From the NCBI RefSeq assembly GCF_002264395.1, contig NZ_NFVA01000002.1, forward strand, positions 1-64,000: 64,000 bases of DNA. The letters are read 5' to 3'. Below are positions 37,444-58,450 of the stretch, piece by piece (positions within the stretch are counted from its first letter, which is position 1; every line of letters starts with the position of its first letter). The notes beneath the pieces are model-generated. The model was not told the origin of the DNA. It was given only the letters and a program-made list of their open reading frames with translations, and did no database searches. The stretch is from Paenibacillus sp. VTT E-133291. Lineage in GTDB: Bacteria; Bacillota; Bacilli; Paenibacillales; Paenibacillaceae. A program made the position numbers and the translations under genes.

Positions 37444-39057
37444 TTAGTGACCTGTTTCAATTTGTTGCATATATTCTCTGGGAGAACTCCCCGTCACTTT
37501 CTTGAAGACCTTACTGAAATAGAAGGCACTTTCATAACCAAGTTTTTGTGAAATTTCGTAAATACGCCCATCTCCTCGTGCCATCATTTCCTTGGCTGCA
37601 GTGATTTTGGTTTCCGTGATATATTCCACATAGTTGACCTTAGCGACTTTGGAGAACAGATGGCTCAAATAGTTGGGACTGAAATTAAAGACATCTGCCA
37701 CTTGGTTCAGTGAAAGCTTAGTGCCGAGATTTCTTTTGATGTATTCCTGGACATTTTTGACGATTTGTTCTTTATAGCTTTGTCTTCGAGTAGAGAGAAT
37801 TTCCGAGCAGCCGTCACGGAACTTAACCAACCAGCCGGCGATTTCTTCAATTGTATGCATCTGATAGATGGACCGGTAACCTTCCGGCTCATTTTCGAAG
37901 ATATGCTCGACAATGTTTTCTCCATCCGCAAGAAGCGAAGTAGCCATATATAGAATATTGCAGGCAGCATCGGTAGCGGTTACCAATAAGTCAGGCCGGT
38001 CTTCGAAGATTTCGATCATTTTGGAGATGATGGTGTACAAAGCAAGGGTATCTAGTTCTTCAAAAGCACGGCGGATCTCCGAACGAGATTCGGAGAAATC
38101 AAAGAGTGAATGCTCCTGCTCAAGTGATTCACCTTCTGCAAAGAAAACAAAAGACCGTTTTTTCACGGCAATCGGCAATGCCTTTCGGGCTGCTAGATAG
38201 CTCTCCCGCAGCAAATAAGGGTCTTCGACTGCAAACCCTATGGCACCAATAATCGTTACATTGAAATAGTTATGTAGTACAGATGCCATGTCTTTAAGTT
38301 GCTTCTCAATGTCAGACATCCAGTTACGGGGATCTACTCCGGGGACAGGCAGAGCAACGGCAAAATTGCGCAAGTCCAGACTGGTTACATAGCAGGGCTT
38401 TATAGAAGCCAGTGTGTCCTTTGCCATTTGTACTGTACTTGAACATAAGGCGACCAGCTTATCCCCACGGGGTGGGACAGTGTCCGGTCCTAGAATCCGG
38501 CAAGTGCATACGAGGTAGGCGGGCTCGGACAAATCTAACGCCAAATCCTCAATCTGCAGAAGGTACTGGTTCTTATTCTCGAACAGGTTGTTGAATAGAC
38601 GAATGAAGAATTTATCACGCTGCGCCTGAAGATTGCTGCGGTGAACAAGTTTAGGGTAGCTTTCCATCGTCTGGTAGCTTTCAAGAAAGGAGATCGCCTT
38701 TCGAATGGATTCGGCCAGTGCTTCCGGTGTGAGTTCCAGCTTTACCAGATAATCGGTGGCCTGTACCTCTATGGCTGCGCGCGCGTATGGAAATTCTTCA
38801 TAACTGGTCAACATAATGAACAATGGAAGACGACCATATTTTTGGCGTACTGAAGCGGCAACCTCCAAACCGCTTTTTATTGGCATTTTAATATCGCTGA
38901 TTACAATGTCCGGGCGGAGGGTGTCAATCATTTCTTCTTCTTGGGCACCATTGTGCGCGATGCCTACAATCTCTATATGATATTGCTCCCATTTCAGCAT
39001 AGACTGCAAGCCGATACAGACTAGAGCTTCGTCGTCGGCGATTAATAATTTGATCAA
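37444..39057 (-). CDS. YesN-type response regulator (receiver plus AraC output)
   Basis: A 537-residue regulator. The receiver domain covers residues 1-120 (ADDE acidic pair, phospho-Asp in PDIVISDIKMP, Thr in LTSYEE, Lys in LVKLE). A central domain of about 280 residues and a C-terminal AraC pair of helix-turn-helices (LSLNQVADVFNFSPNYLSHLF; IYEISQKLGYESAFYF) follow. It pairs with the sensor kinase upstream and most likely activates the adjacent sugar-transport operon. I start at TTG 39057, nine bases from AAGGAT. Confidence 0.92.
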   Translation of the reverse strand: MIKLLIADDEALVCIGLQSMLKWEQYHIEIVGIAHNGAQEEEMIDTLRPDIVISDIKMPIKSGLEVAASVRQKYGRLPLFIMLTSYEEFPYARAAIEVQATDYLVKLELTPEALAESIRKAISFLESYQTMESYPKLVHRSNLQAQRDKFFIRLFNNLFENKNQYLLQIEDLALDLSEPAYLVCTCRILGPDTVPPRGDKLVALCSSTVQMAKDTLASIKPCYVTSLDLRNFAVALPVPGVDPRNWMSDIEKQLKDMASVLHNYFNVTIIGAIGFAVEDPYLLRESYLAARKALPIAVKKRSFVFFAEGESLEQEHSLFDFSESRSEIRRAFEELDTLALYTIISKMIEIFEDRPDLLVTATDAACNILYMATSLLADGENIVEHIFENEPEGYRSIYQMHTIEEIAGWLVKFRDGCSEILSTRRQSYKEQIVKNVQEYIKRNLGTKLSLNQVADVFNFSPNYLSHLFSKVAKVNYVEYITETKITAAKEMMARGDGRIYEISQKLGYESAFYFSKVFKKVTGSSPREYMQQIETGH

Positions 39058-39087
39058 TATGACCACATCCTTGCTAGATTTGACAAT

Positions 39088-40926
39088 CTACTCTTTTTGC
39101 ATATAGGGTAGAAGGATTTTCATTCGGGTATATCGGCCCAACGCACTCTCAATCGAAAGACCGTAATTCTCCCCAAAGGCTAGCCGTAAACGCTCATTTA
39201 CACTACGGAGTCCAACGTTCTCGAACACACCCTTAGCTTCATCCTCCGCATCACACAGAATGGTAGAGATTTGTTCTTCCTTCATGCCAATACCGTTGTC
39301 TTCAATTGTGACCAGGATATCGGCAAAACCGCTTTTCTTCACCGTGATCAGTATATCTCCTCTACCTTTGGGCTCGATGCCATGGAAGATAGCATTCTCA
39401 ACCAGGGGCTGTAGCGTGAAACGGGGAATCAGGCCGGAGAGCAGTCCCTCATTCTCAATTTCCTTCACCATCGAGACCGTACTGCCATACCGGTATTTTT
39501 GAATCAGAAAATAGTCATCAAGCAGGCTTAGCTCATCTTTTAACGGCATTAGCCTCCGGTTGTCTTTGGCAATGCTGCGCAGCAATCTGGAGAGTGAGGT
39601 AGTCATTTCTGCAATGCCGGTTGCATTCTGAATCGTAGCCATCCATTTGATCGAATTCAGTGTATTGTATAAAAAGTGGGGATTAATCTGACTCTGTAAC
39701 ATCCGGTATTCCAACTCCTGTTTCTGCTTCTCGTCTGCAAGTTGACTATCCATGAGTGCAACAATGTCCTGAGACAGTCGGTTGATCCCCCGTCCGACAT
39801 CACCGAGCTCACTATTCCATTCAATATTGCGGTCCAGTAGGAAATTGCCCTGGGCAATCTTATCAATTCGCTTCTTTAATTTCTCTACCGGGAGACTGAT
39901 GGTACGGGTTAAGTACAAGGTAATAATGCCGCTTAAGACGATAACCAATAAACAAACGCCGAGCATGACTAGAATCCATATATTTGTTTTGGGTGCGAAC
40001 AAGTCATTAGGTAATGTCTGAGACAGAATCACACCGCTGCGTACGGGATAAGAGACCAGGATTTGGCTTTCTTCCTCCTCCAGCTTAATCATGGACAGCT
40101 CGGTTTGTGGTCCAACAGGTTTCTCATTGGTATAGGATACCGGTTCATAAGGTTGTGTAATGGAAATTACTTTATCGCCAATGATCTGATAATGATGGTT
40201 GCCGAGCGTTAGCAGCATTCGGGAATTCTCTGGCAGGGAATAACCCTTCAGTTTGTCGGTAATTAAGGAAGTATTAGCGAGTAAATAAACCGTTCCAATC
40301 CGGGCAGCACCATCTCCGTAAATCGGTAGAATAAATGGGATTCCGTTCGTGGTGGAGAGCGGGTCCTTGATCACTTGTTCCCACTGCTCCACAGCATCTT
40401 TGTTAAGACCGGGAATTTGACCGATATTGTGAACAGTAAGTGGAATAGAAGTACTGACGGAATTATCCAACTGGAGGAACTTTCCGTTGTTACCCGTCAC
40501 AATCAAGCGGCGGACATAGCTATTGGAGCGGTTGATCCGAAAATCCTCCTGCATGGCGTTAAAGACATTAACAGCATCCTTGGCACTTGCCTTTGGAGAT
40601 ACAAAATAATCAGTAAGTAATGTATTGGTGGACGAGTTGGTGCTGCTGGTCATCGCCAAAGAGGACAGATTAATCAAATCTTGTTCAATAATATGGGAAA
40701 CCAGCTGAAGGTTGAACTCGGTCGCCTGAATGGTTGTTTTACGCTGATAATAGGTGATCAATTCATAGCTGAAAAAAGACAGCAGAGCGGCGATTAGTAG
40801 CGCGAATAGAGTCATGATGAGAATAATACGGCTTTTAATAGTGGATTTTCTTACCGTTGTGAACACTCCTCTACGAAATGCGGAAATATATAAAGCGGTT
40901 TCAAAAATATCCTTGAATAAATGCAT
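39088..40926 (-). CDS. YesM-type sensor histidine kinase
   Basis: A 612-residue membrane kinase with two membrane segments (about residues 35-55 and 305-325) bracketing a large extracellular sensor domain, then HAMP, the His_kinase box LQSQINPHFLYNTLNSI (phospho-His) and an HATPase domain (LVENAIFHG; IEDNGIGM). YesM kinases sense extracellular carbohydrates, sometimes through the binding lipoprotein. It forms an operon with the response regulator. The N-terminal 25 residues lack a clear ribosome site, so the start is uncertain. Confidence 0.92.
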   Translation of the reverse strand: MHLFKDIFETALYISAFRRGVFTTVRKSTIKSRIILIMTLFALLIAALLSFFSYELITYYQRKTTIQATEFNLQLVSHIIEQDLINLSSLAMTSSTNSSTNTLLTDYFVSPKASAKDAVNVFNAMQEDFRINRSNSYVRRLIVTGNNGKFLQLDNSVSTSIPLTVHNIGQIPGLNKDAVEQWEQVIKDPLSTTNGIPFILPIYGDGAARIGTVYLLANTSLITDKLKGYSLPENSRMLLTLGNHHYQIIGDKVISITQPYEPVSYTNEKPVGPQTELSMIKLEEEESQILVSYPVRSGVILSQTLPNDLFAPKTNIWILVMLGVCLLVIVLSGIITLYLTRTISLPVEKLKKRIDKIAQGNFLLDRNIEWNSELGDVGRGINRLSQDIVALMDSQLADEKQKQELEYRMLQSQINPHFLYNTLNSIKWMATIQNATGIAEMTTSLSRLLRSIAKDNRRLMPLKDELSLLDDYFLIQKYRYGSTVSMVKEIENEGLLSGLIPRFTLQPLVENAIFHGIEPKGRGDILITVKKSGFADILVTIEDNGIGMKEEQISTILCDAEDEAKGVFENVGLRSVNERLRLAFGENYGLSIESALGRYTRMKILLPYMQKE

Positions 40927-41172
40927 GTGTAAAGTGAATCTTCTATTTATAATTTATAATATGCTTAACTAGTTTACCGATATCCATATTAACAACATAG
41001 CATATTCCTGCAATTCCATACAGTGGACGGCAGAGGAGCTGAGAAATTTACATGTTTTAAATAGGATTTTACAGGTTTGAAGCAAGGAGGAAAAGAAGAA
41101 CAAAGAAAAGTGAATGAACTGAGTTTGAAAATACATGCCATTCTAGATGGGAAAGTCTTAAACTTTGAAATA

Positions 41173-41189
41173 GATCGGATGAGCCGATC
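41173..41189 (+). promoter_or_regulatory. inverted repeat upstream of the sugar transporter operon
   Basis: GATCGG and CCGATC are separated by five bases, 36 bases before the lipoprotein start. It could be an operator or an mRNA 5' stem. Nothing else stands out in 40927-41224. Confidence 0.4.
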
Positions 41190-41224
41190 AGTGTAAACAA
41201 TCAGAAGGAAAAGGGGATTTTTAT

Positions 41225-42568
41225 ATGAAATTGAAAAGATTCTATGGCATGACTTTCGCCACAATACTCTCCCTAAGTGCGCTGGCCGGATGTTCCGGTA
41301 ATAACAACAACGAAGGTAGTGCTGCAACAGCTGCTCCACAAAAGAGCAATTCTGCAAACGCTTCCGCTGAACCGAAACAGGATCCTGTGACCTTGAAATG
41401 GGCATTGTGGGATTGGGAAGCCACAGCATACTACCAGCCGTTGATCGAAGCCTATAAAGCTGAGCATCCGAATGTAACAATCGAATATGTCGATCTTGGT
41501 TCCACGGACTATATGACCATGCTAAGTACACAGTTGTCCGGCGGTGCCGATCTGGATGTTCTTACGATTAAGGATATTCCTGGATACTCAAACCTCGTGA
41601 AACAAAATCACTTGGAGCCGCTCAAGGGCTTTATGGGCGACAAAAGCATTGATCCATCCGTTTACGGCGGTACTGTAGAACAGATCGAAGTGAACGACGA
41701 AGTGTATGCGCTTCCTTTCCGTAGTGATTTCTGGGTCGTTTACTACAATAAGGATTTGTTCGACAAAGCAGGAGTGGAGTACCCGAGCAACGATATGACA
41801 TTTGACCAATATGATGAACTAGCTAGAAAAATGACCTCCGGCAGTGGTGCTGAAAAAGTATATGGAGCCCACTACCATACTTGGCGGAGTGCAGTTCAAT
41901 TGTTCGGTATTCTAGACGGCAAGAACAACGTTGTTGGTGGCAACTATGATTTCCTGAAGCCAACCTATGAACGGATCTTGAAAGAACAGGAAGATGGAAT
42001 CGTTATGGATTACGCCACACTGAAGACTTCAAGTACGCATTATTCTGGTGTATTCTACAACAATTCCGTTGCCATGATGAATATGGGTAGCTGGTTTATA
42101 GCGACACAAATTGAAAAGGTGAAGAGCGGCGAGTCCCAATCAACCCACTGGGGAATTGTGAAATATCCTCACCCGGATGGTGTAGAAGCAGGCACAACCC
42201 TAGGTACAATTACTTCCCTGGCTGTAAATCAGAAATCTAAAAATAAAGAAGCTGCCCTTGATTTCATGAACTTTGTGACGGGTGAAGAAGGTGCCAAAGT
42301 TATTGCTTCCACCGGAACCATTCCAGCGATTAAGAACGATGAAGTTATCCAATCCATCACATCCATTGACGGTTTCCCTGCGGATGAGAACAGTAAGGCA
42401 GCACTGACTACGGTTCAGACGTATCTGGAAATGCCAATGCATGAAAAGAGTGCAGATATTGAAGTCATCCTGAACGAAGCCCACGATAACATTATGACCA
42501 AAAACGCTTCGATCGACGAAGGTTTGAAGGATATGAATACGCGCGTACAGCAGCTCTTGAACAATTAA
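41225..42568 (+). CDS. sugar ABC transporter substrate-binding lipoprotein
   Basis: This 447-residue lipoprotein (lipobox LAGC, Cys22) has a short Ser/Ala/Asn linker and the extracellular solute-binding family 1 fold (VTLKWALWDWEATAYYQPLIEAY; DFMNFVTGEEGAKV). Proteins of this size in YesMN-linked loci bind oligosaccharides. It is followed by an intercistronic hairpin and two permease genes. No ATPase gene is nearby, so a shared MsmX-type ATPase elsewhere is expected. AAGGGGA supports the start. Confidence 0.93.
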   Translation: MKLKRFYGMTFATILSLSALAGCSGNNNNEGSAATAAPQKSNSANASAEPKQDPVTLKWALWDWEATAYYQPLIEAYKAEHPNVTIEYVDLGSTDYMTMLSTQLSGGADLDVLTIKDIPGYSNLVKQNHLEPLKGFMGDKSIDPSVYGGTVEQIEVNDEVYALPFRSDFWVVYYNKDLFDKAGVEYPSNDMTFDQYDELARKMTSGSGAEKVYGAHYHTWRSAVQLFGILDGKNNVVGGNYDFLKPTYERILKEQEDGIVMDYATLKTSSTHYSGVFYNNSVAMMNMGSWFIATQIEKVKSGESQSTHWGIVKYPHPDGVEAGTTLGTITSLAVNQKSKNKEAALDFMNFVTGEEGAKVIASTGTIPAIKNDEVIQSITSIDGFPADENSKAALTTVQTYLEMPMHEKSADIEVILNEAHDNIMTKNASIDEGLKDMNTRVQQLLNN

Positions 42569-42591
42569 CCTGAAGAGAGTTGGTGAATTCT

Positions 42592-42618
42592 AAGGGCGGG
42601 TGTATGCCCGCCTTTTAT
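42592..42618 (+). terminator. intercistronic hairpin after the binding-protein gene
   Basis: A 9-bp GC-rich stem (42592-42600 with 42607-42615), a 6-base loop and TTTTA. It probably acts as a partial terminator or mRNA stabiliser, so that binding protein is made in excess of permease. Confidence 0.75.
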
Positions 42619-42639
42619 AGAAGGTTTGGAGGAGAAAGC

Positions 42640-43578
42640 ATGCAGAACGAAACCATATTGGGTACAAAAAAGATCCCTAAACGACATTTGTCTAAAGGTG
42701 TCCGGGAAAACCTGGTAGCTTACAGCTTCATTGCGCCAAACTTTATCGGATTTGCCGTGTTTACGCTGGTACCCATGTTCTTTGCCTTTATTCTTGCTTT
42801 TGTGAAATGGGACGGGGCCAATCCAATGAAGTATATCGGACTGGACAATTTCACCCGGCTTATCAAAGATACAACATTTCACAAAGCATTATGGAATACC
42901 ATTGTTTACACTATTGGCGTAGTACCGTTCACTATGATTGTGGCGCTCGCGCTGGCCATTCTGCTTAATCAGAAGATAATGGCCCGCAATTTCATGAGAA
43001 CCGTATTCTTTTTCCCATATGTAGCTTCATTGGTAGCTGTTGCTGCCGTATGGAACTTTATCTTTAGCCCTACGATGGGTCCGATCAACAATATTCTGCA
43101 TACCCTTACCGGCATCCCACTGGAGGAGCTTCCCCGCTGGGCAGCGGATAAACACTGGGCGATGTTCACCGTAATACTGTTTACGGTATGGAAAAACATG
43201 GGGTATTACATGGTCATTTACTTGGCAGGTCTTCAGGGGATCAACCCTGAATTGTACGAGGCTGCTGAACTTGATGGAGCCAATGCATGGAGAAGATTCC
43301 GCAATGTGACGGTCCCTCAGCTGGCGCCTACCTCCTTCTTTGTGCTGATGATTCTAGTCATCAATTCATTCAAAGTCTACGATATCTTTATCAACCTATT
43401 TGCCGGCGCTGATAACCAGCTGAACGATTCTACAAGGGTTATGGTTTATCAAATCTACAATACGGCGTTCCGTTCGCTTGATTACGGATATGCCAGCGCC
43501 ATGGCCATTGTATTGTTTCTGCTGGTACTTGGCATCACCATCGTCCAGTTCCGCGGCGAGAAGAAATACGGACAATAG
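42640..43578 (+). CDS. sugar ABC transporter permease, MalF/LplB type
   Basis: A 312-residue permease with six membrane helices and the EAA loop ELYEAAELDGANAWRRFRNVTVPQLAP that docks the ATPase. It forms a heterodimer with the next gene product. The ATG at 42640 has GGAGGAG upstream; the frame extends further but through the hairpin region. Its spacing to the second permease is 15 bases. Confidence 0.94.
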   Translation: MQNETILGTKKIPKRHLSKGVRENLVAYSFIAPNFIGFAVFTLVPMFFAFILAFVKWDGANPMKYIGLDNFTRLIKDTTFHKALWNTIVYTIGVVPFTMIVALALAILLNQKIMARNFMRTVFFFPYVASLVAVAAVWNFIFSPTMGPINNILHTLTGIPLEELPRWAADKHWAMFTVILFTVWKNMGYYMVIYLAGLQGINPELYEAAELDGANAWRRFRNVTVPQLAPTSFFVLMILVINSFKVYDIFINLFAGADNQLNDSTRVMVYQIYNTAFRSLDYGYASAMAIVLFLLVLGITIVQFRGEKKYGQ

Positions 43579-43593
43579 GAGGATTCAAAAGAT

Positions 43594-44433
43594 ATGGTGG
43601 GTACAAATAAAGGAATTAGAATCGGCACAATGGTGCTAGTGTATATTTTGTTATTTGCGACAGTGCTCTGTATGCTTGTTCCATATATATGGATGTTGTC
43701 TTCTTCACTCAAGCTGAACAAGGATGTGTTCTCGTTTCCGATGCAATGGATTCCGGCAAATCCGCGCTGGGAGAATTTCGTGGATATCTGGACCCGAATT
43801 CCGCTGGACCGCTTCATTTATAACACAGCGAAATTATCAATTATCGTAACGATATTGCAGCTACTGACTTCAAGCTTTGCTGCTTATGCGTTCTCCAAAC
43901 TGCAATTCAGAGGGAAAAATGTATTATTCCTTGGATATATCGCTACGATTGCGATTCCTTGGCAGGCATATATGGTGCCGCAATTTATCTTGATGCGTTA
44001 CATGGGACTTAATAATACCCATCTGGCAATCATTCTATTGCAGGCATTCTCGGCTTTCGGAGTATTTCTGATGCGCCAGTTCTATCAGGGAGTCCCAGAT
44101 GAATTATGCGAGGCGGCCCGAATCGATGGCTTGAGCGAATATGGGATTTGGGCGAGAATCATGCTGCCGTTATCTAAGCCAGCCTTGTCCACATTGACGA
44201 TCTTCACCTTTGTTGCCACATGGAATGACTTTTTGGGACCAATGATTTATTTGACGGATACAAAGCTTAAGACCATTCAAATTGGACTCCGAATGTTCAT
44301 TTCGCAATATTCCGCCGAATACGGTCTAATTATGGCTGCAAGTGTGGTTTCCATTATTCCGGTTGTGATTGTTTTCTTGGCACTTCAGAAGTACTTCGTG
44401 CAAGGCGTCGCAGCATCTGGTATTAAAGGCTAG
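43594..44433 (+). CDS. sugar ABC transporter permease, MalG/AraQ type
   Basis: This 279-residue partner permease has six helices and an EAA loop ELCEAARIDGLSEYGIWARIMLPLSKPA. It completes the importer of the locus. AGGAGG precedes its ATG. A terminator follows, so the transport operon ends here. Confidence 0.94.
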   Translation: MVGTNKGIRIGTMVLVYILLFATVLCMLVPYIWMLSSSLKLNKDVFSFPMQWIPANPRWENFVDIWTRIPLDRFIYNTAKLSIIVTILQLLTSSFAAYAFSKLQFRGKNVLFLGYIATIAIPWQAYMVPQFILMRYMGLNNTHLAIILLQAFSAFGVFLMRQFYQGVPDELCEAARIDGLSEYGIWARIMLPLSKPALSTLTIFTFVATWNDFLGPMIYLTDTKLKTIQIGLRMFISQYSAEYGLIMAASVVSIIPVVIVFLALQKYFVQGVAASGIKG

Positions 44434-44441
44434 ATAGGTTG

Positions 44442-44482
44442 AACCTGGCAGTTGCAGTCTTCGCATGCTGCCAGTTTTTTTA
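44442..44482 (+). terminator. terminator of the sugar transporter operon
   Basis: CTGGCAG (44445-44451) pairs with CTGCCAG (44468-44474) around an inner TGC/GCA stem, followed by seven T residues. Confidence 0.85.
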
Positions 44483-44496
44483 GCTTACCTATGAAA

Positions 44497-44586: not shown

Positions 44587-47500
44587 ATGAACAGAAAGTA
44601 CGCCATTGGAAAAAAGTTAATCTCAATAATGATGACCACTGCGCTCGTAGTAGGAATGTTTCCGGCATTCCATATGCCAACTGTATTTGCGGCAACAATG
44701 GATCCGATCTTCGCAGCTGCCCATATGGGCGTGCAGACATCTGCAGAAACTACTTTGCCTGCTAGCATTGATATTGGAGGCCAGTCTGCAACTGTGAAAT
44801 GGAATATTGGCGAAGATACCTTTGCCGTACCTTATGACACAGTGTCAGTAACTGGTACAGCGAACGGAGAACCGGTTGTTGCCAGCGTAGAAGTTATCCC
44901 ATCTTCAAACCATCCATTGGTTTACTTTGTGGATAGCGGCAGGGGGGGAGATTCCGTAGGAAATGTCCCTACTGCTTCGCCGTTGTACGAAGCAGTCAAA
45001 ACGCTGACAGGTAGCTTGCTAATCAACCAGTCACCGGATCAGAAATATGTCAGCGGAACGACAATCTGGGGATTTGATGATTCCATAAACAAAGTGAAAA
45101 ACTCCAAAGACGGGGGACTTGCCGATCCTGCAACTGATCCATCTATATGGACAGTAGGACTTCGTGCCGACCCTACTAGCAATCATATTGTATATAAATT
45201 AATGGCTCCAGAAGCTGGAACCTATACACTCAGTAGTGGTTTTCATGATTGGTATGGTAGCCGCACTCGAGTAATACAGCCTCAGATCGAATATAAGGAT
45301 ACAAATGGGGTAACAAAGACGATATCGTTTGCACCATTCAATACTAATGTCACTCAGCTTATTTCCGGCGAATTCACTATTCCCGGTGATATCGACGCTA
45401 GCAGTCCTATGACATTAACCTATGCCTATGTTTCCGGTGAGAAATCTATCTTGAGCTGGTTCGCCATTGCTAAGGGCGGGATTCAGAAAGAGATCGAAGA
45501 GGCTCGGCAGACCGCAGCTTCTATGGTCAAGGTTCTGCTCGACGGCAACGATATTAAAGCAGACAATGTCAACGGCCTCACGTTCAAGGGATTTGGCGTA
45601 CTGAGTGCCAACAGCACCAGTGCCCTATTGATGGATTATAAGGCAGAGCATCCGGATGCATACATGGAGATGCTGCGGATTCTGTTCGGTGGAGATCATC
45701 CCATTATGACGCATGTAAAAATCGAGATGGGCAATGACCGCAACAATTCTACCGGTCCGGACCCGGCTACCATGCGTACGGCCGATGAAGAAGCCAATGT
45801 CACCCGGCATCCCGGATTCCAGCTTGCGGCAGACGCCAAGGCTACTAATCCGAGTCTCAAGGTCAGCATTCTGCGATGGAGTGCTCCGGCCTGGGCAAGC
45901 AACAACGATAAAATCTATACCTGGTATAAAAAGACGATTCTTGCCGCTTACCGAGAGTATGGTTATATGGTCGACTACGTGAATCCTCATATCAACGAGC
46001 ATTCGCCGGATTTGACATGGACCAAACAGTACGCTGAGCGAGTTAAAACAGATAACGAAGGTTTTGCAAGTCCAGAGGAGCAAGCGCTCTATAACCAGAT
46101 CAAGGTTGTGATCTCTGATGAAGTAGGGATCGGTTCCTTTGGCGGCAGTATGGTAAGCGACGCTTCACTAAGGGATGCGGCTCCGATCGCCGGATATCAC
46201 TATAACACTGACGACGACAGCGCAGGGAATTTCAAAAAGCTCGCGGAACAATATGATATTGAAGTATGGAACAGTGAGGCGCAGTCAACCTTCAGTAACT
46301 CTGCTTTCCGTCCCAACAATAATGTGAAAGACCCTACAGTGGAAGGAACCGGCATCGGCGGTGTTGGCAGTCCGCTGGAGATGAGCAATACGATTATTAA
46401 AGGATTCGTCAATTCCCGCCGGACGCATTTTATTTATCAGCCAGCCATCGGTTCATTCTACGAGGGTGGACAATATTCATTTAAGGAACTAGTTAGCGCA
46501 CGTGATCCGTGGTCGGGCTGGATTCACTATGATGCAGGTCTTGTTACACTGCAGCATTACAGCTGGTTCGCAAATCTGGGCTGGGAGAACGAGAATAATA
46601 CGGCAGGGATTTGGAGAGCGGTTCCTAAGGCTAGCTCTACGGGGGCAACAGGCACTAACCCTGTCAGCGGCCGCAACGGTTCTCCTAGCTATATGACTCT
46701 TGCTGCACCTGATAAGAGTGATTTCTCGACCGTTATCGTAAATGACAGCGAGTATGCTAAAACCTACAAGCTACAGACAGTCAATATGGGTTATACGGAC
46801 AATCCATCACTGGAAGTGTGGGAGACTCGTGCGGCAGACGCGGGAAAAGCTTTTAACAGCAATTATATGAAATATCTCGGGGATATCGTTGCTGATGGCA
46901 GCGGGGTTTATACCATTCATGTCAAACCATATTCGACAGTGACTGTGACCACTTTGGAGAATAAGGATAATGAGGCATTTCAGACGCCGATACCTGTAGA
47001 AGGCGACCGCACCGTGCTTGATACCGATGCAACGGGCAGGGTGCAAAATACCACAGACAATATCCTGTATGCGGATGATTTTGACTATTCCAATCAATCC
47101 GTTGTGAAAATCGGGGCAGGCGGGCAGAGTGTGGGCACCCAAAGCTATATAGAATCCCGTGGCGGCTCTAAAAGTGTGATACCGCGCTATACGCATGACC
47201 GTAACGGCGCCTTCGAGGCTTATCTTCCGGACGGGACGGACAACTATGTTCTGCGCCAACAGCTGGATACCGAAATGATGGGGCTAGGTGGCACTTGGAA
47301 CGGTGGAGACCCCGTAACAGCTATCGGTGATAACCGATGGACGAATTACAAGGCTAGTGTTGATGTTTCGTTCGAGACGAACAGTACGCAGGAAGGAGAC
47401 AATTATGCTGCGATTGGTGCACGGTATCAAGGAGGTGGCAGCTCTCACACTATAAACGGCACACCTTATGTGCTGAAATTCTGGTTTGACGGAGGCTGGC

Positions 47501-50500: not shown

Positions 50501-51249
50501 TGGACGGTACTGCCATTCCGATCCCCCGTTTTGACAAGCCATTGACGATTACCTTCACCGTCGATTCGGATGCCAATACCGATTTGCTCGGCCTCTACTA
50601 TATCGCCGGGGACGGAGCTCTTGAGTTTATGGGTGGAACGCTAACTGCTGGAAAATGGAATGCGGAAATACAGCATTTTAGCCAGTTTGCGGTCCTGGAA
50701 TATGACAAGGTTTTCTCGGATGTCAGTGCAGATAGTTGGGCTAGTAATGTTATTAAGACCATGGCTGCCAAACATATTATTCAAGGCATTTCTAATACCG
50801 AATTTAATCCACAGGGGAAAGTGACAAGAGCACAATTCGCGACCATGATTGCAAGAGCGTTAGGGTTAGAGGCAGGAGGTCATTCGACGTTCGTTGACGT
50901 GGACTCCAAAGCCTGGTATGCCGAAGCCGTTGCAGCTGTAAGCGAAGCGGGCATTGTATTTGGCCGCAGTTCGGATACTTTCGCACCGGATCACAGCATC
51001 ACCCGTGAGGAAATGGCTGTGATGATCGTCAGGGCTTATGAATATTTACATGGCAGCAAGGTAGAAGAAGTTTCTGCGGGCTCGTTCAGTGATTATTCCC
51101 AGATTCATGACTGGGCACAGAAGTCAGCAAGGATTGCTGAGCAGACGGAGCTCATTAAGGGACGCGGCAATAAGCAATTCGCGCCTCAAGAGCTGATGAC
51201 CCGTGCCGAAAGTGCACAAGTCATTGCCAATCTGCTGGGGCATTTGTAA
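44587..51249 (+). CDS. giant secreted GH59-like glycosidase with SLH anchor
   Basis: A 2220-residue surface enzyme. It has a signal peptide (1-37), a Big_4-like domain with a following beta domain (about 50-305), and a catalytic domain (about 325-815) resembling galactocerebrosidase GH59: acid/base Glu471 in INEHSPD, nucleophile Glu564 in WNSEAQSTF, and ARDPWSGW. The laminin-G-like domain of GALC follows (827-1057; YADDFDYS, NRWTNYKASVDV), then another beta domain (1064-1193), a helical segment (1200-1270), a second Big_4 plus beta unit (1274-1520), two DUF5011/HYR-like repeats (1622-1708, 1710-1798), a Pro/Thr linker (1800-1845) and three SLH domains (2041-2220). AAAGGAGG supports the start. 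Galactoside cleavage is inferred. Confidence 0.9.
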   Translation: MNRKYAIGKKLISIMMTTALVVGMFPAFHMPTVFAATMDPIFAAAHMGVQTSAETTLPASIDIGGQSATVKWNIGEDTFAVPYDTVSVTGTANGEPVVASVEVIPSSNHPLVYFVDSGRGGDSVGNVPTASPLYEAVKTLTGSLLINQSPDQKYVSGTTIWGFDDSINKVKNSKDGGLADPATDPSIWTVGLRADPTSNHIVYKLMAPEAGTYTLSSGFHDWYGSRTRVIQPQIEYKDTNGVTKTISFAPFNTNVTQLISGEFTIPGDIDASSPMTLTYAYVSGEKSILSWFAIAKGGIQKEIEEARQTAASMVKVLLDGNDIKADNVNGLTFKGFGVLSANSTSALLMDYKAEHPDAYMEMLRILFGGDHPIMTHVKIEMGNDRNNSTGPDPATMRTADEEANVTRHPGFQLAADAKATNPSLKVSILRWSAPAWASNNDKIYTWYKKTILAAYREYGYMVDYVNPHINEHSPDLTWTKQYAERVKTDNEGFASPEEQALYNQIKVVISDEVGIGSFGGSMVSDASLRDAAPIAGYHYNTDDDSAGNFKKLAEQYDIEVWNSEAQSTFSNSAFRPNNNVKDPTVEGTGIGGVGSPLEMSNTIIKGFVNSRRTHFIYQPAIGSFYEGGQYSFKELVSARDPWSGWIHYDAGLVTLQHYSWFANLGWENENNTAGIWRAVPKASSTGATGTNPVSGRNGSPSYMTLAAPDKSDFSTVIVNDSEYAKTYKLQTVNMGYTDNPSLEVWETRAADAGKAFNSNYMKYLGDIVADGSGVYTIHVKPYSTVTVTTLENKDNEAFQTPIPVEGDRTVLDTDATGRVQNTTDNILYADDFDYSNQSVVKIGAGGQSVGTQSYIESRGGSKSVIPRYTHDRNGAFEAYLPDGTDNYVLRQQLDTEMMGLGGTWNGGDPVTAIGDNRWTNYKASVDVSFETNSTQEGDNYAAIGARYQGGGSSHTINGTPYVLKFWFDGGWQLLVNNSAVASGNVVSGSGGVKLAGFNAAHDAWHNIAVQVAGDKVTAYLDDVKLAAYADPNPELSGRVDLASGYYHVRFDNLKVETVDGYAPYYSELLDNLEMYDLAATPNPKLQYNGLWSHQNGAGMYIYQRSLSTSQGADATMEYSFEGTGLDILGPNNGSAKLEVTVDDEIVMLSADTMASKELYQTYTLRGLKYGQHNVQIRVLSGTLVVDAVAVVSGEVKGAVDTATLQAAVTAAKEINKLDEYSERDWLLFATAQRAAEEALENAADYRLDQEGAIHLAGRLTSAQNQLTTGDVRELAAPQDTATSVGKLPTLPDKLEATREDGSKLLVPVKWNVGAVSFNTPYERVAVTGTYGNLKTTAYVEVVPEGLVYFLDVGVSADGVTPPYTVIKNFVGDSLLNSTADQLSTGAMWGHTNTGANYNLKGLGGAVVITDKTQTGVYSSNTKNTPLIYTLPLNAGKYTITSFHRDWWNMSNRTMDITLSYMDAEGKTVNETVKTGVLAGPNGITITHNFTLPVSGVVKYSINNTNTQASVISYLAVAKDRFSIVNEQAVNEAKSIIEGAAYSVQKETANSEDGVRTWLLQTMNGLIGFSDTGVTMGDITLSSFQEATDDTAGSFSFTVSLSKGEAKAEAAASGTIKLPEPDRLQPVITLNGETTVNLPIGSEYTDAGASAYDDEDGDITDRITTTVSSEVYGLTELDTAKADIYTFHYNVSDAAGNAATEVTRKVIVSEDPDVLKPIITLLGEPSVQLDNGASYTDAGATAVDDRDGDITERITATITKDGNSIETLDTTVEGTYIYHYNVSDSVGNAAAEVTRTVTIAEAQQPPTSTPTAEPTPTVEPTASPAPTPAPAVTPGPVSTTAPTILPTSTPLTQTTRILDRDDFTAPVGGVITVQLNETTDSVLLPEGLSELIGVNTLRLVWPTLTIQLTPEALKSIQEKAGGDQADGARLKLSAGKVSRAVVEQLMNNPAVNRSVQLTAASDVINFSLEGIGVDGTAIPIPRFDKPLTITFTVDSDANTDLLGLYYIAGDGALEFMGGTLTAGKWNAEIQHFSQFAVLEYDKVFSDVSADSWASNVIKTMAAKHIIQGISNTEFNPQGKVTRAQFATMIARALGLEAGGHSTFVDVDSKAWYAEAVAAVSEAGIVFGRSSDTFAPDHSITREEMAVMIVRAYEYLHGSKVEEVSAGSFSDYSQIHDWAQKSARIAEQTELIKGRGNKQFAPQELMTRAESAQVIANLLGHL

Positions 51250-51345: not shown

Positions 51346-52182
51346 TCAGCTTTTTTTGCCGTATTTTCCAGGTGGAATGCCCGTGATGTTCTTGAAGGTA
51401 CGAATGAAATTGGCATAGTCATTGAAGCCGGATAGATAACAGGTATCGGAAACGGAGTTTCCAGCGGTTAAGAGCTGTTTGGATAACGCGATCTTTTTCA
51501 GCAGGACGTAACGGTAGATTGTTCCTCCGGTCTGTTGCTTGAACAGGTGACTAAGATAATATTTATCGACGTTCAACTCCCCGGCGATCTGCTCAAGCGA
51601 TAGATTCAGATGGAGATGGTTATCAATATAGCTCATGGCTGTTTGAATATGTGAGGAAATAATGCTAGGTATAGTGGAAACGGTACGGCTATATAGCTCA
51701 TTAATGAGGATAAGGATCTGAATCAGATATGTAAGGGCCAAAACCTCGCTGCCGTATTGAGGGTTCTCCAAGGATGCAATCAGGCAGGAAGCAAGCGCCA
51801 TAAACTCTGCAAGCAGCGCTTCATCCATTTGAGCCAGATTATACTCTCCGTTCTGACGGTTCTGGAAGCAGGCGAGCAGATTTGTAGTTGCAGTACAGAA
51901 GGGATATACAAGTGGAGCTTTGAAATGAATAGTTAAACGTTCGTAAGGCTCCGGAGATAGATTAATGATTTTATGAATCTCGTGATTGTTGAATAAGAGC
52001 ACATTGCCCCGCTGAAGCGGATAGCTATATTGATCCACAAATCCGTTCACCGTGCCGCCTAAAAATAGAAAGATTTCAAAGTGATCATGAATATGAAAAT
52101 CTTTGGTGGGTGAGATCGGTGAATTGCCGATGCCCGCCAGTATGTCGCCTTCGAACGGCTGATAATACTGGGCATGTTTCAT
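51346..52182 (-). CDS. AraC-family transcriptional regulator with cupin sensor
   Basis: A 278-residue regulator: an N-terminal cupin (HDHFEIFLFLGGTVNGFVDQ; LLFNNHEIHKI) and two C-terminal helix-turn-helices (LSLEQIAGELNVDKYYLSHLF; VSDTCYLSGFNDYANFIRTF). It is divergent from the four-enzyme operon at 52367-58450, and five CGCAA/GCAA motifs lie in the shared region, so it probably activates that operon in response to an intracellular sugar or uronate. I start at the ATG at 52182, with AAAGGGG upstream. Confidence 0.92.
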   Translation of the reverse strand: MKHAQYYQPFEGDILAGIGNSPISPTKDFHIHDHFEIFLFLGGTVNGFVDQYSYPLQRGNVLLFNNHEIHKIINLSPEPYERLTIHFKAPLVYPFCTATTNLLACFQNRQNGEYNLAQMDEALLAEFMALASCLIASLENPQYGSEVLALTYLIQILILINELYSRTVSTIPSIISSHIQTAMSYIDNHLHLNLSLEQIAGELNVDKYYLSHLFKQQTGGTIYRYVLLKKIALSKQLLTAGNSVSDTCYLSGFNDYANFIRTFKNITGIPPGKYGKKS

Positions 52183-52206
52183 CGAGAGAGCCCCTTTCAA
52201 ATTGAT

Positions 52207-52287
52207 CGCAAGATACGCAATAAATGATCATAAATCGCAAAGACATTGCAATAACATAACACTAAACTATAGAAGAAGATTACGCAA
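52207..52287 (+). promoter_or_regulatory. promoter with CGCAA repeats, candidate AraC sites
   Basis: CGCAA occurs at 52207, 52216, 52236 and 52283, and GCAA at 52248. A promoter TTGCAA (52246-52251), 16-base spacer, TATAGA (52268-52273) lies among them, with three repeats upstream of the -35 box as expected for an AraC activator. Confidence 0.55.
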
Positions 52288-52366
52288 TCAACCAAGTATA
52301 TAGCTGGTCAGAACAAGAGTAACGGGAACCTGCATCTGCTGAATAGACGCAACTGGAAGGGCGGTA

Positions 52367-53518
52367 TTGTGTATGAATGGTACGAAACAGCGTAAATATT
52401 GGCTGGACACGATGCTAAAGATCGGGGACCCAGTGCTTGACGCTTTGTCGCAGAGAAAATTAAAGGAACGGCTACCTACGGAGTTTAACAGTGACAGGAG
52501 TTCATTTGCGCACTTGGAAGCATTCTCTAGGTTATCCTGTGGAATGGCTCCCTGGCTAGAGCTTAAAGGGCTGGAGGGTGAAGAAGAAGTGCTCAGGGCT
52601 CGTTATGTCATATTGATGCTGGAATGCATCGATGCTGCTGTTGATCCATCATCGCCTGACTATATGGATTTTAAGTCCGAAGGCCAACCGTTGGTCGATG
52701 CGGCATTCCTCGCTCATGCTTTGGTGCGTGCACCGAAGCGGCTTGCAGGGCAGCTGAATGAGCGGGTGAAAGGTAATTTAATAACAGCTTTGAAGCAAAC
52801 GCGCCGGACAGCGCCTAGCGGTAGCAACTGGCTGTTATTTAGCGCAATGGTCGAAGCAGCTTTATATATCCTCGGCGATTCAGAATATGACCGGATGCGC
52901 GTGGGATATGCGATCCATATGTTTATGGATTGGTACAAAGGGGATGGCATATACGGGGACGGTAAGGATTTCCACTGGGATTATTACAATAGCTTTGTCA
53001 TTCAGCCGATGCTTGTGGATGTGGTTACACTCTTTGAACGGGAATCGGAGCAATATTCCGAATTGAAGCTCTTGATTGTAGAGCGGGCACAACGATACGC
53101 AACGGTTCTGGAACGAATGATTGCGCCAGACGGTACGTATCCGTTCATCGGGCGTTCCATCGTTTACCGTTTTGGTGCATTTCAACTGCTATCCCAAGCG
53201 GCGCTGCAGCATTTTCTGGAGGATGCGCTATTCCCCTCACAGGTACGCTGCGCCTTGACTGCTTTAATTACACGGACTATGGGATTTACGGGGACATTGG
53301 ATGAGGCCGGATGGCTACGTCCAGGGGTATACGGCTACCAGCCGGAGCTTGCTGAGAGCTACATCAATACGGGAAGTCTTTATTTATGCGCTTCGGTATT
53401 CCTTCCACTGGGGCTACTGCCTGCAGATCCTTTCTGGGCAGGGACAGAATTGAAATGGACCGCACAAAGAATTGCAGCCGGTGAGGATGTTATGAGAGAT
53501 CATGCCTTGAGTAGATAG
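52367..53518 (+). CDS. DUF2264 (GH154-like) protein, short form
   Basis: This 383-residue protein is an alpha/alpha-toroid of the DUF2264 family, some members of which are beta-glucuronidases (GH154). Marks are SSFAHLEAFSRLSCGMAPWLEL, SNWLLFSAMVEAAL, DWYKGDGIYGDG and PFIGRSIVYRFG. It lacks the C-terminal beta domain seen in the 627-residue paralogue at 56567, so it is either a natural short form or truncated but stable. No signal peptide. GTG at 52367 and ATG at 52373 are both possible starts; AAGGGCGG lies upstream. First gene of a four-gene operon. Confidence 0.82.
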   Translation: MCMNGTKQRKYWLDTMLKIGDPVLDALSQRKLKERLPTEFNSDRSSFAHLEAFSRLSCGMAPWLELKGLEGEEEVLRARYVILMLECIDAAVDPSSPDYMDFKSEGQPLVDAAFLAHALVRAPKRLAGQLNERVKGNLITALKQTRRTAPSGSNWLLFSAMVEAALYILGDSEYDRMRVGYAIHMFMDWYKGDGIYGDGKDFHWDYYNSFVIQPMLVDVVTLFERESEQYSELKLLIVERAQRYATVLERMIAPDGTYPFIGRSIVYRFGAFQLLSQAALQHFLEDALFPSQVRCALTALITRTMGFTGTLDEAGWLRPGVYGYQPELAESYINTGSLYLCASVFLPLGLLPADPFWAGTELKWTAQRIAAGEDVMRDHALSR

Positions 53519-53558
53519 AGGTGGATCTGATCTAACTGGGCAAAGGGAGGAAGAAAGC

Positions 53559-55376: not shown

Positions 55377-55421
55377 ATGATGAAAGAAATAGAGAACTAT
55401 TCGAAGAAGGCGGTGTTTGAA

Positions 55422-56558
55422 ATGAATATAGCGGAAAAACAAACTTGGCTGGATGAAGCATGGAACAAGGCACTTGAAAAGACAAGAAGTAACAGTCGGA
55501 AAATCGGCGCAGAATTTCCACATGCCAGTCAAGGTGGTAAATACTTGCTTGAAGCGCCGAACTGGTGGACAGCAGGGTTCTGGCCGGGAATGCTCTGGCA
55601 GTTTTATTCTGAGAGTGGAGACGAAAGTCTTAAAATGATCGCGGAGCGCTGCGAAGAGAGACTCGACGAGGTACTGGACGGCTACGTTAAGCTGGACCAC
55701 GATTTAGGCTTCATGTGGATTCTTACCAGTGTGGCGAATTACAAATTGACGGGTAGCGAGGAATCACGAATTCGAGCATTAAAGGCAGCCAACTACCTGG
55801 CAGCCCGCTTCAATCTGAAAGGGCATTATATTCGGGCTTGGAATCCATGGAGTGTAGGGAAGGACAATAGTGGAGTTGCTATAATCGACTGCTGCATGAA
55901 CACCAGCCTGTTGTTCTGGGCTTCCGAGACAACGGGTGATCCCCGCTATCGTCATATCGCAGAGGCGCATATGGATACTGTGCTGGAGCATTTTATCCGA
56001 CCGGACGGCTCCGTGTACCACATCGTCAAATTCAACCCGGAGACGGGTGAAGTGGTGGAGAAGCTTGGTGGGCAAGGCTTTGCGCCCGAATCGGCTTGGT
56101 CACGCGGCACGGCTTGGGCTATTTACGGCCTAGCGCTTGCCTATCATCATACGGGAAAGCAAAGCTACTTGGATGGAGCCAAGCAGGTAGCGCATTTCTT
56201 CTTGACCCGACTGCCGGAGGATCACGTTCCACATTGGGATTTCCGCGCTCCCGGTGAAGTCGGCGAGATACGTGATAGCTCCGCTGGTTCCTGCGCAGCG
56301 AGTGGATTGCTGCTGCTAGCCGTCCAGGTGGATGATTCGGAGTCCCATGTGTACCGGAACGGGGCTATAAGAATAGTGGAATCTCTCTACAGGAATTATG
56401 GCAGTTGGGACAATGCGGACGAGGAAGGGTTGCTGCTTCATGGTACAAGTAACTACCCTGAGAACCGGAATATAGATGTTCCTCTTATCTACGGTGATTT
56501 TTTCTATGTCGAAGCACTGGCTCGGCTTAAAGCAGCAGGACCCTTCTATTGGGAGTAG
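55422..56558 (+). CDS. GH88-like unsaturated glucuronyl hydrolase
   Basis: A 378-residue (alpha/alpha)6-barrel enzyme with the GH88 motifs: Asp in LDHDLGFMW, Asp in IIDCCMNTSLLFW, SAWSRGTAWAIYGLA, and WDFRAP with DSSAGSCAASGLL. It hydrates and releases 4,5-unsaturated uronic acid from lyase products. It is cytoplasmic. The frame opens at 55377, directly after the lyase stop, but GGCGGTG favours the ATG at 55422. Its end overlaps the long DUF2264 frame region, indicating one operon. Confidence 0.9.
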   Translation: MNIAEKQTWLDEAWNKALEKTRSNSRKIGAEFPHASQGGKYLLEAPNWWTAGFWPGMLWQFYSESGDESLKMIAERCEERLDEVLDGYVKLDHDLGFMWILTSVANYKLTGSEESRIRALKAANYLAARFNLKGHYIRAWNPWSVGKDNSGVAIIDCCMNTSLLFWASETTGDPRYRHIAEAHMDTVLEHFIRPDGSVYHIVKFNPETGEVVEKLGGQGFAPESAWSRGTAWAIYGLALAYHHTGKQSYLDGAKQVAHFFLTRLPEDHVPHWDFRAPGEVGEIRDSSAGSCAASGLLLLAVQVDDSESHVYRNGAIRIVESLYRNYGSWDNADEEGLLLHGTSNYPENRNIDVPLIYGDFFYVEALARLKAAGPFYWE

Positions 56559-56566
56559 GGGGGATT

Positions 56567-58450
56567 ATGATGAACAATGAGAAATCTTTTTCTCGTATTG
56601 GCGATAATCCGCTAAAGACCCGTGAGAATCTGGTAATCGCTCTTGAGCAGCTGACGGATCCGCTTCGGCCGCACTACAGCAAAGGCAGCGCACGACTTAA
56701 AATCGGTAGAACAGGGGCGAGCTATTCGGCAGCAAATGCTGAAATGGAAGGTTTCTCGCGGGTGTTGTGGGGTTTGGTACCCTTGCTCATTGGTGGTGGG
56801 GACAGCGAACTCTGGGACATCGTGCTGGATGGCATTCGGCATGGCACCGATCCTTCTCATGAAGAATATTGGGGAGAGGTGAAGGATTACGACCAGCGTT
56901 TGGTTGAAATGGCGGTTTTCGGCTTCGCATTGGCAGCCATTCCGGAACGGATTTGGTTGCCGCTTGCTCCGAAGGAGCAGGATCAATTATACCGCTGGCT
57001 GAATCAAATAAATGCCCATCCTTGCTATGACTGCAATTGGCTGTTCTTCAACGTTCTAGTCAATGTCGGATTCCGTAAAATCGGCCGTTCCTACGACGCA
57101 AGGCAGCTAGAAAACAATTTGAAGCGCATGGATGATTTCTATTTGGGAGAGGGCTGGTACAGCGACGGAATTAATGGCCACAGCGATTATTATGTACCTT
57201 TTGCTATACATTACTATGCGCTGCTGTACGCAAAGCTGATGAAGCAGGAAGACCCCGAACGTTCCCGTGTGTTCAAAGAACGGGCTCGATTGTTTGCTGT
57301 CGATTTCATCGGCTGGTTCGCACCCGACGGCTCCACACTTCCTTATGGACGTAGCTTGACTTACCGCTTTGCCCAGTCGGCATTTTGGAGCGCCGTTGCC
57401 TATGCAGATGTTGAAGGATTTCCGGCTGGCGTGGTGAAAGGTCTGGTGCTGCGAAATCTGCGTTGGTGGTTCAGCCAGCCGATTGTTGACGCCGATGGCG
57501 TACTGACCATCGGATATACTTACCCGAATCTGGTCATGGCGGAGAATTACAATGCTCCCGGTTCTCCGTATTGGGCGTTAAAGACTTTCCTGCCGCTGGC
57601 TCTAGGGGCGGATCATCCGTTCTGGAAGGAAGAGGAACTGCCGCTACCGGCCATTCCGGCTGTCATGGTTCAGAAGCCTGCACATCTTGTCATCGTCCGC
57701 GAGCCCGCTTCCGGTCATGTGGCAGCCTTCAACAGCGGACATTTATACACGAATGAACATACCCATACCTCGGCCAAATACGAGAAATTCGTGTATTCAA
57801 CAGGCTTCGGCTTCAGCGTGCCCCGCTCCGAATGGGGGCTCTCCCAAGGAGCGTTCGACTCTATGCTTGCGCTGAGTGAGCGCGGAGACAACTTATACCG
57901 GGTACGACGCCAGAATATAGAGTCTGAGATTATAGACAACGTCCTTCGTTCCGTCTGGAGGCCGTGGGCCAATGTCGAGGTTCAGACTTGGGTTGTCGCC
58001 GGACTTCCTTGGCATATTCGGATTCATCGAGTCGAAACTGGACGGTCGCTGGATACCGCAGAGGGTGGATTCGCACTTGGGCAAGAGAATGAAATGTTAT
58101 CGAAGATCGATGTGGCTGGTGCGATGGCCTCCACTGCTTGGGGAACCAGTGGAATCAAGGATTTGCTAGGCTGCCGGAAGGGTGAGCTGGTTTGGCCGAA
58201 TGCCAATACGAATCTCCTTCGCCCTCGGACGGTCCTGCCGATGCTGACGACCACCCTTCTGCCGGGCATTCATTGGCTCGCGTCGGCTATATTTGGTTCA
58301 CCTTCAGAGGAGGCTTTGGATATTCAGGCTGATCAAGCTGATGACGTCTTCAAGCATTCACCTGAGCAAGATTTGAAAGTTAAGCTCAGCGATGGAGCGT
58401 TAACCATTGTCACTCTTTCTGGGAGAGAAATTGTCCTTAATTTACAATAA
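56567..58450 (+). CDS. DUF2264 (GH154-like) protein, full-length form
   Basis: A 627-residue cytoplasmic enzyme with the DUF2264 toroid (GFSRVLWGLVPLL; CNWLFFNVLVNVG; GWYSDGINGHSDYYVPFAIHYY; PYGRSLTYRFAQ) and a C-terminal beta-sandwich (AGHVAAFNSGHLYTNEHTH is replaced here by SGHVAAFNSGHLYTNEHTH). GH154 members studied elsewhere remove beta-glucuronic acid. As last gene of the operon it could act on saturated uronate ends while GH88 handles unsaturated ones. AGGGGGGATT precedes two consecutive ATG codons. Confidence 0.87.
   Translation: MMNNEKSFSRIGDNPLKTRENLVIALEQLTDPLRPHYSKGSARLKIGRTGASYSAANAEMEGFSRVLWGLVPLLIGGGDSELWDIVLDGIRHGTDPSHEEYWGEVKDYDQRLVEMAVFGFALAAIPERIWLPLAPKEQDQLYRWLNQINAHPCYDCNWLFFNVLVNVGFRKIGRSYDARQLENNLKRMDDFYLGEGWYSDGINGHSDYYVPFAIHYYALLYAKLMKQEDPERSRVFKERARLFAVDFIGWFAPDGSTLPYGRSLTYRFAQSAFWSAVAYADVEGFPAGVVKGLVLRNLRWWFSQPIVDADGVLTIGYTYPNLVMAENYNAPGSPYWALKTFLPLALGADHPFWKEEELPLPAIPAVMVQKPAHLVIVREPASGHVAAFNSGHLYTNEHTHTSAKYEKFVYSTGFGFSVPRSEWGLSQGAFDSMLALSERGDNLYRVRRQNIESEIIDNVLRSVWRPWANVEVQTWVVAGLPWHIRIHRVETGRSLDTAEGGFALGQENEMLSKIDVAGAMASTAWGTSGIKDLLGCRKGELVWPNANTNLLRPRTVLPMLTTTLLPGIHWLASAIFGSPSEEALDIQADQADDVFKHSPEQDLKVKLSDGALTIVTLSGREIVLNLQ

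Follow-up and report, generated by a model that had tools for sequence, protein, structure and literature searches.

A probable polysaccharide-utilisation locus for glucuronic-acid-containing oligosaccharides in Paenibacillus

Which glycan is served, and by what chemistry, is the question raised by a group of genes of Paenibacillus sp. VTT E-133291 that brings together a sensor pair, an importer, a giant surface-anchored enzyme and an operon of four further enzymes (positions 37,444–58,450 of the window, the whole stretch of 64,000 nucleotides analysed, which belongs to contig C213 of a 7.08-Mb genome in 285 contigs, G000). An earlier note had proposed here a polysaccharide-utilisation locus for a glycan containing galactose and uronate, and the genes it described are all in place, with the Pfam families it had claimed (Table 1). 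The locus is probably a Gram-positive polysaccharide-utilisation locus for oligosaccharides containing glucuronic acid (GlcA), the central chemistry of which is most likely elimination and dehydration rather than ordinary glycoside hydrolysis. Sensor, importer and degradative enzymes are linked and jointly conserved, which is the mark of such loci in Gram-positive bacteria.

The dehydration part concerns the two DUF2264 proteins, termed 'GH154-like' enzymes in the earlier note. In 2025 members of the DUF2264 ('GH154') family were reported to act on terminal glucuronate by dehydration: BcGDH dehydrates the terminal GlcA of chondrosine, the product being taken off by the GH88 enzyme of Bacteroides caccae, and BT3677 dehydrates methyl beta-glucuronide (PMC12269599). 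The two window proteins score 355 and 433 bits in Pfam. The short, single-domain protein matches 8oi4 (E 1e-87) and BcGDH (9o4u, E 6e-81), and the long, two-domain protein matches 8oi4, 9o4u and 9nwf (E 3e-26 to 2e-24). Nine of the ten probed BcGDH residues (E74, R78, N177, W178, F181, Y229, R285, Y289, and Y354) are kept in both, as E51, R55, N154, W155, F158, Y207, R263, Y267, and Y332 in the short protein (invariant in 19 aligned rows) and as E67, R71, N163, W164, F167, Y215, R268, Y272, and Y334 in the long one (invariant in 24). On these residues both proteins are best read as dehydratases, not as glucuronidases. The founding 'GH154' member, BT3677 of Bacteroides thetaiotaomicron, belongs to the dehydratase family and, as described in PMC12269599, has a further domain next to its catalytic one, as does the long window protein.

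The elimination part concerns the 605-amino-acid (aa) protein that had been termed a heparinase-type lyase. A lyase it appears to be; its type, however, is PL33. Pfam gives no match at E ≤ 0.001 (Hepar_II_III_C stays below threshold, E 0.046), whereas solved PL33 structures match at E 9e-36 to 4e-34 (8r73, 9.3e-36; BtPL33-HA, 8r6z, 2.4e-35). Residues named in PMC11848413 were mapped through the alignment to 8r6z, and their invariance was assessed over 16 aligned relatives. The catalytic Asn238, Tyr291, and His444 (BtPL33-HA numbering) fall on N198, Y251, and H403, the substrate residues Arg103, His154, Leu174, and Trp239 on R76, H128, L144, and W199, and the loop residues Tyr470 and Phe475 on Y429 and F434, all invariant; the platform residue Trp224 lands in a gap. 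Val in place of Trp242, the mark of PL33_2, is found as V202 and is likewise invariant. A His three residues past Tyr291 is aligned with Tyr254 of the window protein, which is suggestive of the covarying His-to-Tyr change of PL33_2; PMC11848413 numbers this His 301, a position that is not His by count. With nine out of nine tested residues and the PL33_2-type Val, the protein is predicted to be a PL33-type lyase. Compared with BtPL33-HA, ObPL33-CS, and ObPL33-gellan (PMC11848413), the window lyase resembles PL33 in the nine residues and in its significant match to solved PL33_1 structures, with Val as in PL33_2, and differs in its distant sequence, its predicted cytoplasmic location and its Paenibacillus operon. 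The substrates reported so far for PL33_2 are chondroitin sulfate and gellan (PMC11848413), and the PL33 member BT4410 occurs with GH88 in a Bacteroides locus for glycosaminoglycans (GAGs) (PMC12877422).

Between the lyase and the long DUF2264 gene stands a gene for a putative unsaturated uronyl hydrolase of family GH88. The protein matches 1vd5 at E 1.7e-75 and has a Pfam match that is weak yet above the cut-off (31.8 against 26.6 bits). Two of its Asp residues, D109 and D171, do not vary over 15 rows and correspond to the catalytic Asp88 and Asp149 of the enzyme UGL; a chain with Asn for the first catalytic Asp is visible among the structure matches. The single PF04962 (KduI-family) gene of the genome is a candidate for the step after GH88, in a family that also covers IolB.

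The following route is favoured. The two-component system would sense the substrate, and the ATP-binding cassette (ABC) importer would bring in acidic oligosaccharides with an ATPase encoded elsewhere (none turned up in the Pfam scan of the locus genes). Within the cytoplasm, the PL33-type lyase would split 4-substituted GlcA by beta-elimination, and the two DUF2264 dehydratases would take water from terminal, unsubstituted GlcA; each reaction would leave a 4,5-unsaturated GlcA that the single GH88 could remove. In species that carry it, the SLH-anchored GH59 enzyme may trim or cut a galactoside-containing glycan at the cell surface. The export split proposed earlier, with the giant enzyme outside and the four operon enzymes inside, agrees with a simple measure of N-terminal hydrophobicity, used here instead of a signal-peptide predictor: the N-terminus of the GH59 protein is of the exported type, the binding protein is predicted to be exported and carries a lipobox-like LSALAGCSG, and the four operon enzymes, which have no comparable hydrophobic stretch, are predicted not to be.

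Conservation was followed in a survey of 100 genomes of the genus, this genome counted among them, and in two sets of gene neighborhoods that overlap in species and are not independent: regions fetched from 38 other congener genomes (20 with GH59, 18 without) and the best 80 of 436 stretches encoding a lyase relative in a collection of genome contigs, some of these 80 named loci being cut by contig ends. Linkage required GH88 within 1.5 kb and DUF2264 within 3 kb of the lyase, both on the lyase strand; counts were not drawn from the E-value-ranked GH88 survey, which covers the strongest rows and where weak GH88 proteins like that of the window rank far down. GH88 is linked to the lyase in 36 of the 38 congener regions and 71 of the 80 named loci, DUF2264 in 35 and 63, respectively, and gene order is the same in congeners. 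The lyase-GH88-DUF2264 core is widespread. Some lyase match occurs in 67 genomes of the survey and an orthologous lyase (at least 65% identity) in 39; the named records with the closest lyases belong to Paenibacillus, followed by Cohnella and a small number of others. The binding protein and the response regulator each have a match of at least 60% identity in 25/38 congener regions, the former with 89–97% identity among the orthologs listed. In the best 80 loci a binding protein at least 60% identical is present in 19, AraC in 15, and GH59 in 7.

Several observations weigh against this route. The tenth BcGDH residue, Asn176, the Ala variant of which is inactive (PMC12269599), is replaced by Ser in the short DUF2264 protein (S153) and by Cys in the long one (C162); 8oi4 carries Thr there, so the residue varies within the family. 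The same 8oi4, nearest solved relative of the short protein, was deposited and published as a beta-galactosidase, a reading disputed in PMC12269599. The PL33_2 substrates named above, chondroitin sulfate and gellan, count here as well, and one tested PL33_2 enzyme, among others, was inactive on the substrate panel of PMC11848413. In 18 of the 80 named loci GH88, DUF2264 or both are lacking, and in five of these the lyase stands without any further gene of the window. Elsewhere in the genome (G000:C240, 35070–41006) a 2671-aa frame has two PL8 and three SLH matches, and such an SLH-anchored PL8 protein could be a source of GAG- or xanthan-like oligosaccharides for the importer of this locus. 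Finally, GH59 is absent from 13 of the 39 genomes with the orthologous lyase.

The 8oi4 deposition, together with the original descriptions of BT3677 and BD-beta-Gal that PMC12269599 cites, speaks for DUF2264 proteins being true hydrolases, beta-1,6-glucuronidases or beta-1,6-galactosidases, in which case lyase and GH88 would act on other residues than DUF2264. However, Y229, R285, and Y289, the residues proposed for dehydration, are kept in both window proteins, and BT3677 itself showed dehydratase activity (PMC12269599). A hydrolase, moreover, would not need GH88, and the two families are found together. Pairing was checked in 20 hand-chosen regions from among 76 DUF2264 rows in 61 genomes; 15 of them have no lyase and 5 have one, and most do not belong to the orthologous locus. 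A GH88-family gene adjoins DUF2264 in 13 of the lyase-free regions, the two exceptions being near-identical loci, and adjoins it or lies one gene off in all five with lyase (18/20 overall). The three DUF2264 genes of this genome are all beside or near a GH88-family gene, and an additional importer-sensor-DUF2264-GH88 locus lies outside the window operon. The hydrolase explanation is thus very unlikely, and the dehydratase reading is kept.

The absence of GH59 from these lyase genomes means that the substrate need not contain a galactoside, and a route dependent on GH59 is unsupported; on this point the earlier reading of one logical route is changed. That the protein is a GH59 member is indicated by its PF02057 domain (262 bits), which aligns with galactocerebrosidase (E 2e-13), and by candidate catalytic residues Glu471 (HINE) and Glu564 (WNSE), invariant in 22 rows including a GH59 only 30% identical. 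Glu471 is presumably the acid/base and Glu564 the nucleophile, after the roles in galactocerebrosidase; the phmmer alignment to that enzyme pairs the second Glu and not the first, which was placed through the N-E motif. The gene occurs in 26/100 genomes (GH59 and lyase counts take in this genome, as well as GH59 and lyase of G063 and the lyase of G029, each split over two frames). Its presence on a tree of 39 lyases (21 labelled for GH59) needs five changes against 13.2 for shuffled labels, three of them forced by well-supported branches; the tree was midpoint-rooted, so that gain and loss are matters of interpretation. In the near relative G078 all other genes are kept and about 100 bp between permease and araC take the place of the GH59 gene; the remainder of the locus thus persists without it. 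GH59 would seem to be a patchy addition that is not essential to the route.

Whether the importer with GH59 forms a galactoside system merely neighboring a separate AraC-controlled glucuronide operon had also to be considered. The regulators differ, GH59 is patchy on the lyase tree, other genes are inserted between GH59 and araC in 10 of the 20 GH59-carrying congener regions, and the spacing between GH59 and lyase is 15–32 kb in 11 of the 26 GH59 genomes. Two GCAA-repeat sites between araC and the lyase operon, CGCAAGATACGCAATA and the stronger TCGCAAAGACATTGCAATAA, are kept with few substitutions across 29 aligned regions, and within the window no convincing copy was seen before the importer or GH59 genes. 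TCGCAAAGACATTGCAATAA has a single exact copy in the genome and one match with three mismatches (two for the reversed control), and its pattern has 3 matches in the window against 1.7 expected. AraC would control the lyase operon through this operator of its own, and with no such site before the importer/GH59 operon, the latter may be left to the two-component system. On the other hand, the same importer type stands beside the lyase module in loci that have neither GH59 nor araC, most of the 19 named loci counted above for the binding protein showing neither in gene maps, and all 26 GH59 carriers have the lyase on the same contig (match starts 8.0–31.5 kb apart, <11 kb in 15; Fisher p 1e-14, overstated by shared ancestry). 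Two independent systems are unlikely on this evidence. A lack of co-occurrence in other genomes had been set beforehand as part of what would refute the proposal; with GH59 and lyase together in every carrier and a shared gene order in congeners, the view of one conserved locus is borne out.

As to the substrate, the glucuronate half of the earlier proposal is supported by families and active-site residues, which point to specificity for terminal or 4-substituted beta-GlcA, perhaps with beta-galactosides besides; galactose is suggested by GH59 family membership. Arabinogalactan-type glucuronides are the best guess, a tentative one with somewhat less than even chances, ahead of GAG-like or bacterial exopolysaccharide chains. 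Such chains would explain why a lyase (for capped GlcA) and dehydratases (for bare GlcA) are needed together, and what was first published on BT3677 and BD-beta-Gal fits them. A fuller scheme, speculative and rather unlikely as a whole, would be a cytoplasmic arabinogalactan-glucuronide route in Paenibacillus, Cohnella, and relatives, with PL33 acting on capped (e.g., Rha-1,4-) GlcA, the two dehydratases on bare GlcA of different linkages, one GH88 finishing both and an SLH-GH59 that acts on arabinogalactan although its family is known for galactocerebrosidase.

The target could instead be GAG-like chains (unsulfated chondroitin or hyaluronan) or a gellan- or xanthan-like bacterial polysaccharide, with an extracellular PL8 from elsewhere making the oligosaccharides and GH59 incidental. 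The PL33_2 substrates given above and the strong similarity of the short DUF2264 protein to the chondroitin dehydratase BcGDH agree with this, as do the B. caccae chondroitin route, in which lyase, GH88, and dehydratase are paired (PMC12269599), haloarchaeal GAG loci holding lyase, GH88, GH154, and ABC transporter (PMC13260240) and the two-domain SLH-anchored PL8 of this genome. However, neither hexosaminidase nor sulfatase was found among the locus genes by the Pfam scan, in those GH59 carriers that were examined the gene follows the importer directly, and no association of PL8 with the lyase is visible in 13 same-genus genomes (PL8 in 5/10 with a lyase match and 2/3 without), a distribution that speaks neither for nor against a link of PL8 to the locus. 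A GAG or gellan-like target is possible, if somewhat unlikely, and arabinogalactan-type glucuronides stay the first choice.

Each part of the locus belongs to a known family, and the enzyme combination, which the earlier note did not recognise, is in part published. The chondroitin locus PUL25 of B. caccae (BcPL35, BcGH88, BcGDH) shares the GAG-type lyase, dehydratase, and GH88, with two reactions feeding one unsaturated uronyl hydrolase; it differs in having PL35 instead of PL33, one dehydratase instead of two, a GH109 hexosaminidase and a Bacteroides system, and the excerpted text describes neither GH59 nor AraC (PMC12269599). In the haloarchaeal loci, too, a GAG lyase is encoded together with GH88, GH154, and an oligosaccharide transporter of the ABC type; these loci differ in their location on archaeal plasmids, a different lyase and sulfatases, and GH59 is not mentioned in the excerpted text (PMC13260240). 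The aldouronate cluster of Paenibacillus sp. JDR-2 likewise joins an SLH-anchored surface xylanase with an ABC importer and with uronate enzymes of the cytoplasm, but serves xylan with GH67/GH10/GH43; a giant SLH-GH59, JDR-2 protein 4665, is also in print there, likened to the window protein by description only (PMC4765114). A PL33-type lyase combined with two dehydratases and an SLH-GH59, as in this locus, was not found in the literature searched. A search for DUF2264 found nothing, and one combining PL33, GH88, and Paenibacillus led to PMC8222515, on a Vibrio locus. The dehydratase reading of 'GH154' is hereby carried over to soil bacteria of the Gram-positive kind, where the operon has a clear logic, and a function is suggested for many genes of the DUF2264, PL33-type, and GH88 families (the 436 lyase relatives came from one collection scan). 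The four cytoplasmic enzymes form a simple test set for the glycan served and for the linkage specificity of the two DUF2264 layouts.

Table 1. Features of the locus, with positions in the window
Feature	Position	Strand	Basis
YesN-type response regulator, receiver + AraC-type helix-turn-helix	37444..39066	-	Pfam PF00072, PF12833
YesM-type sensor histidine kinase	39088..40926	-	Pfam HAMP, His_kinase, HATPase
Sugar-type lipoprotein solute-binding protein, ABC importer	41225..42568	+	PF01547 (SBP_bac_1)
ABC permease 1	42580..43578	+	PF00528 (BPD_transp_1)
ABC permease 2	43594..44433	+	PF00528 (BPD_transp_1)
2220-aa SLH-anchored GH59 protein, predicted exported	44587..51249	+	PF02057, PF21708, SLHx3, Ig-like
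AraC-family regulator, divergent from lyase operon	51346..52200	-	PF12833, PF02311 (cupin-like sensor domain)
Conserved operator-like sites CGCAAGATACGCAATA (52207-52222) and TCGCAAAGACATTGCAATAA (52235-52254)	52207..52254	+	conserved across 29 aligned intergenic sequences
Single-domain beta-glucuronate dehydratase-like protein (DUF2264, 'GH154')	52367..53518	+	PF10022, 8oi4, 9o4u
PL33-type lyase, predicted cytoplasmic, 605 aa	53559..55376	+	structure-sequence matches 8r73, 8r75, 8r6z, 8r70
GH88 putative unsaturated uronyl hydrolase, 393 aa	55377..56558	+	1vd5
Two-domain beta-glucuronate dehydratase-like protein (DUF2264 + DUF2264_C)	56549..58450	+	PF10022, PF20938
Terminator-like hairpin of 18 pairs, operon end	58482..58522	+	pattern scan, consensus match only

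The genes of the lyase operon are spaced by 40 bp, 0 bp and then a 10-bp overlap, the latter if the TTG start is assumed; TTG starts were taken at 52367 and 56549, and the in-frame ATGs that follow 6 and 18 bases later, respectively, are no less likely to be the starts. Pattern scans gave terminator-like sites above shuffled sequences (27 against 14.6) and promoter-like sites below them (18 against 27.1), and no cre-like match in the four intergenic stretches scanned. Kinship of DUF2264_C with the lyase, or of DUF2264 with GH88, was unsupported by profile comparison of shallow alignments.

Within the GH59 protein a stretch of about 210 aa occurs twice (residues ~99–310 and ~1337–1532, 28% identity) and has no Pfam match; the second copy comes after a Big_4 match and the first after a stretch that looks similar by eye. 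The GH59 domain covers residues ~310–1240. The inserts between GH59 and araC consist in several species (L090/L091, L102/L103, L098/L099) of tandem arrays of about four to seven similar proteins of ~385 aa with a repeated 'YVAVIDP' start, which by eye look like beta-propellers, and in some species include a second importer; judging by their sequences, these genes are a separate insertion. Beside araC, in the place held elsewhere by GH59, G026 has a 1292-aa SLH-anchored purple-acid-phosphatase-like protein (L110:4823–8701), and G030, G047, and G052 have open reading frames of 1292, 1284, and 956 aa.

Other glycan-related genes were seen near lyase homologs as isolated cases that were not used as substrate proof: GH43 (by Pfam) after GH88 in L176, with L169 and L170 alike at the N-terminus, GH127 in L191, a sulfatase in L180, GH95 in L194, and GH42 with a Hepar_II_III lyase in G081. 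Just past the end of the window, some 8 kb from the downstream side of this locus, contig C213 encodes a protein of GH115, an alpha-glucuronidase family (66526–69402; L209:8526–11402), and carries a GH38 gene about 5 kb further; no open reading frame of length comparable to GH115 was found in the fetched parts of G056 and G057, which end soon past that distance. Closer by, a PALP protein whose AMP-binding match stays under the cut-off (window 61116–63434) is followed by an ornithine-cyclodeaminase-family gene (L209:5466–6431), a pairing reminiscent of diaminopropionate synthesis.

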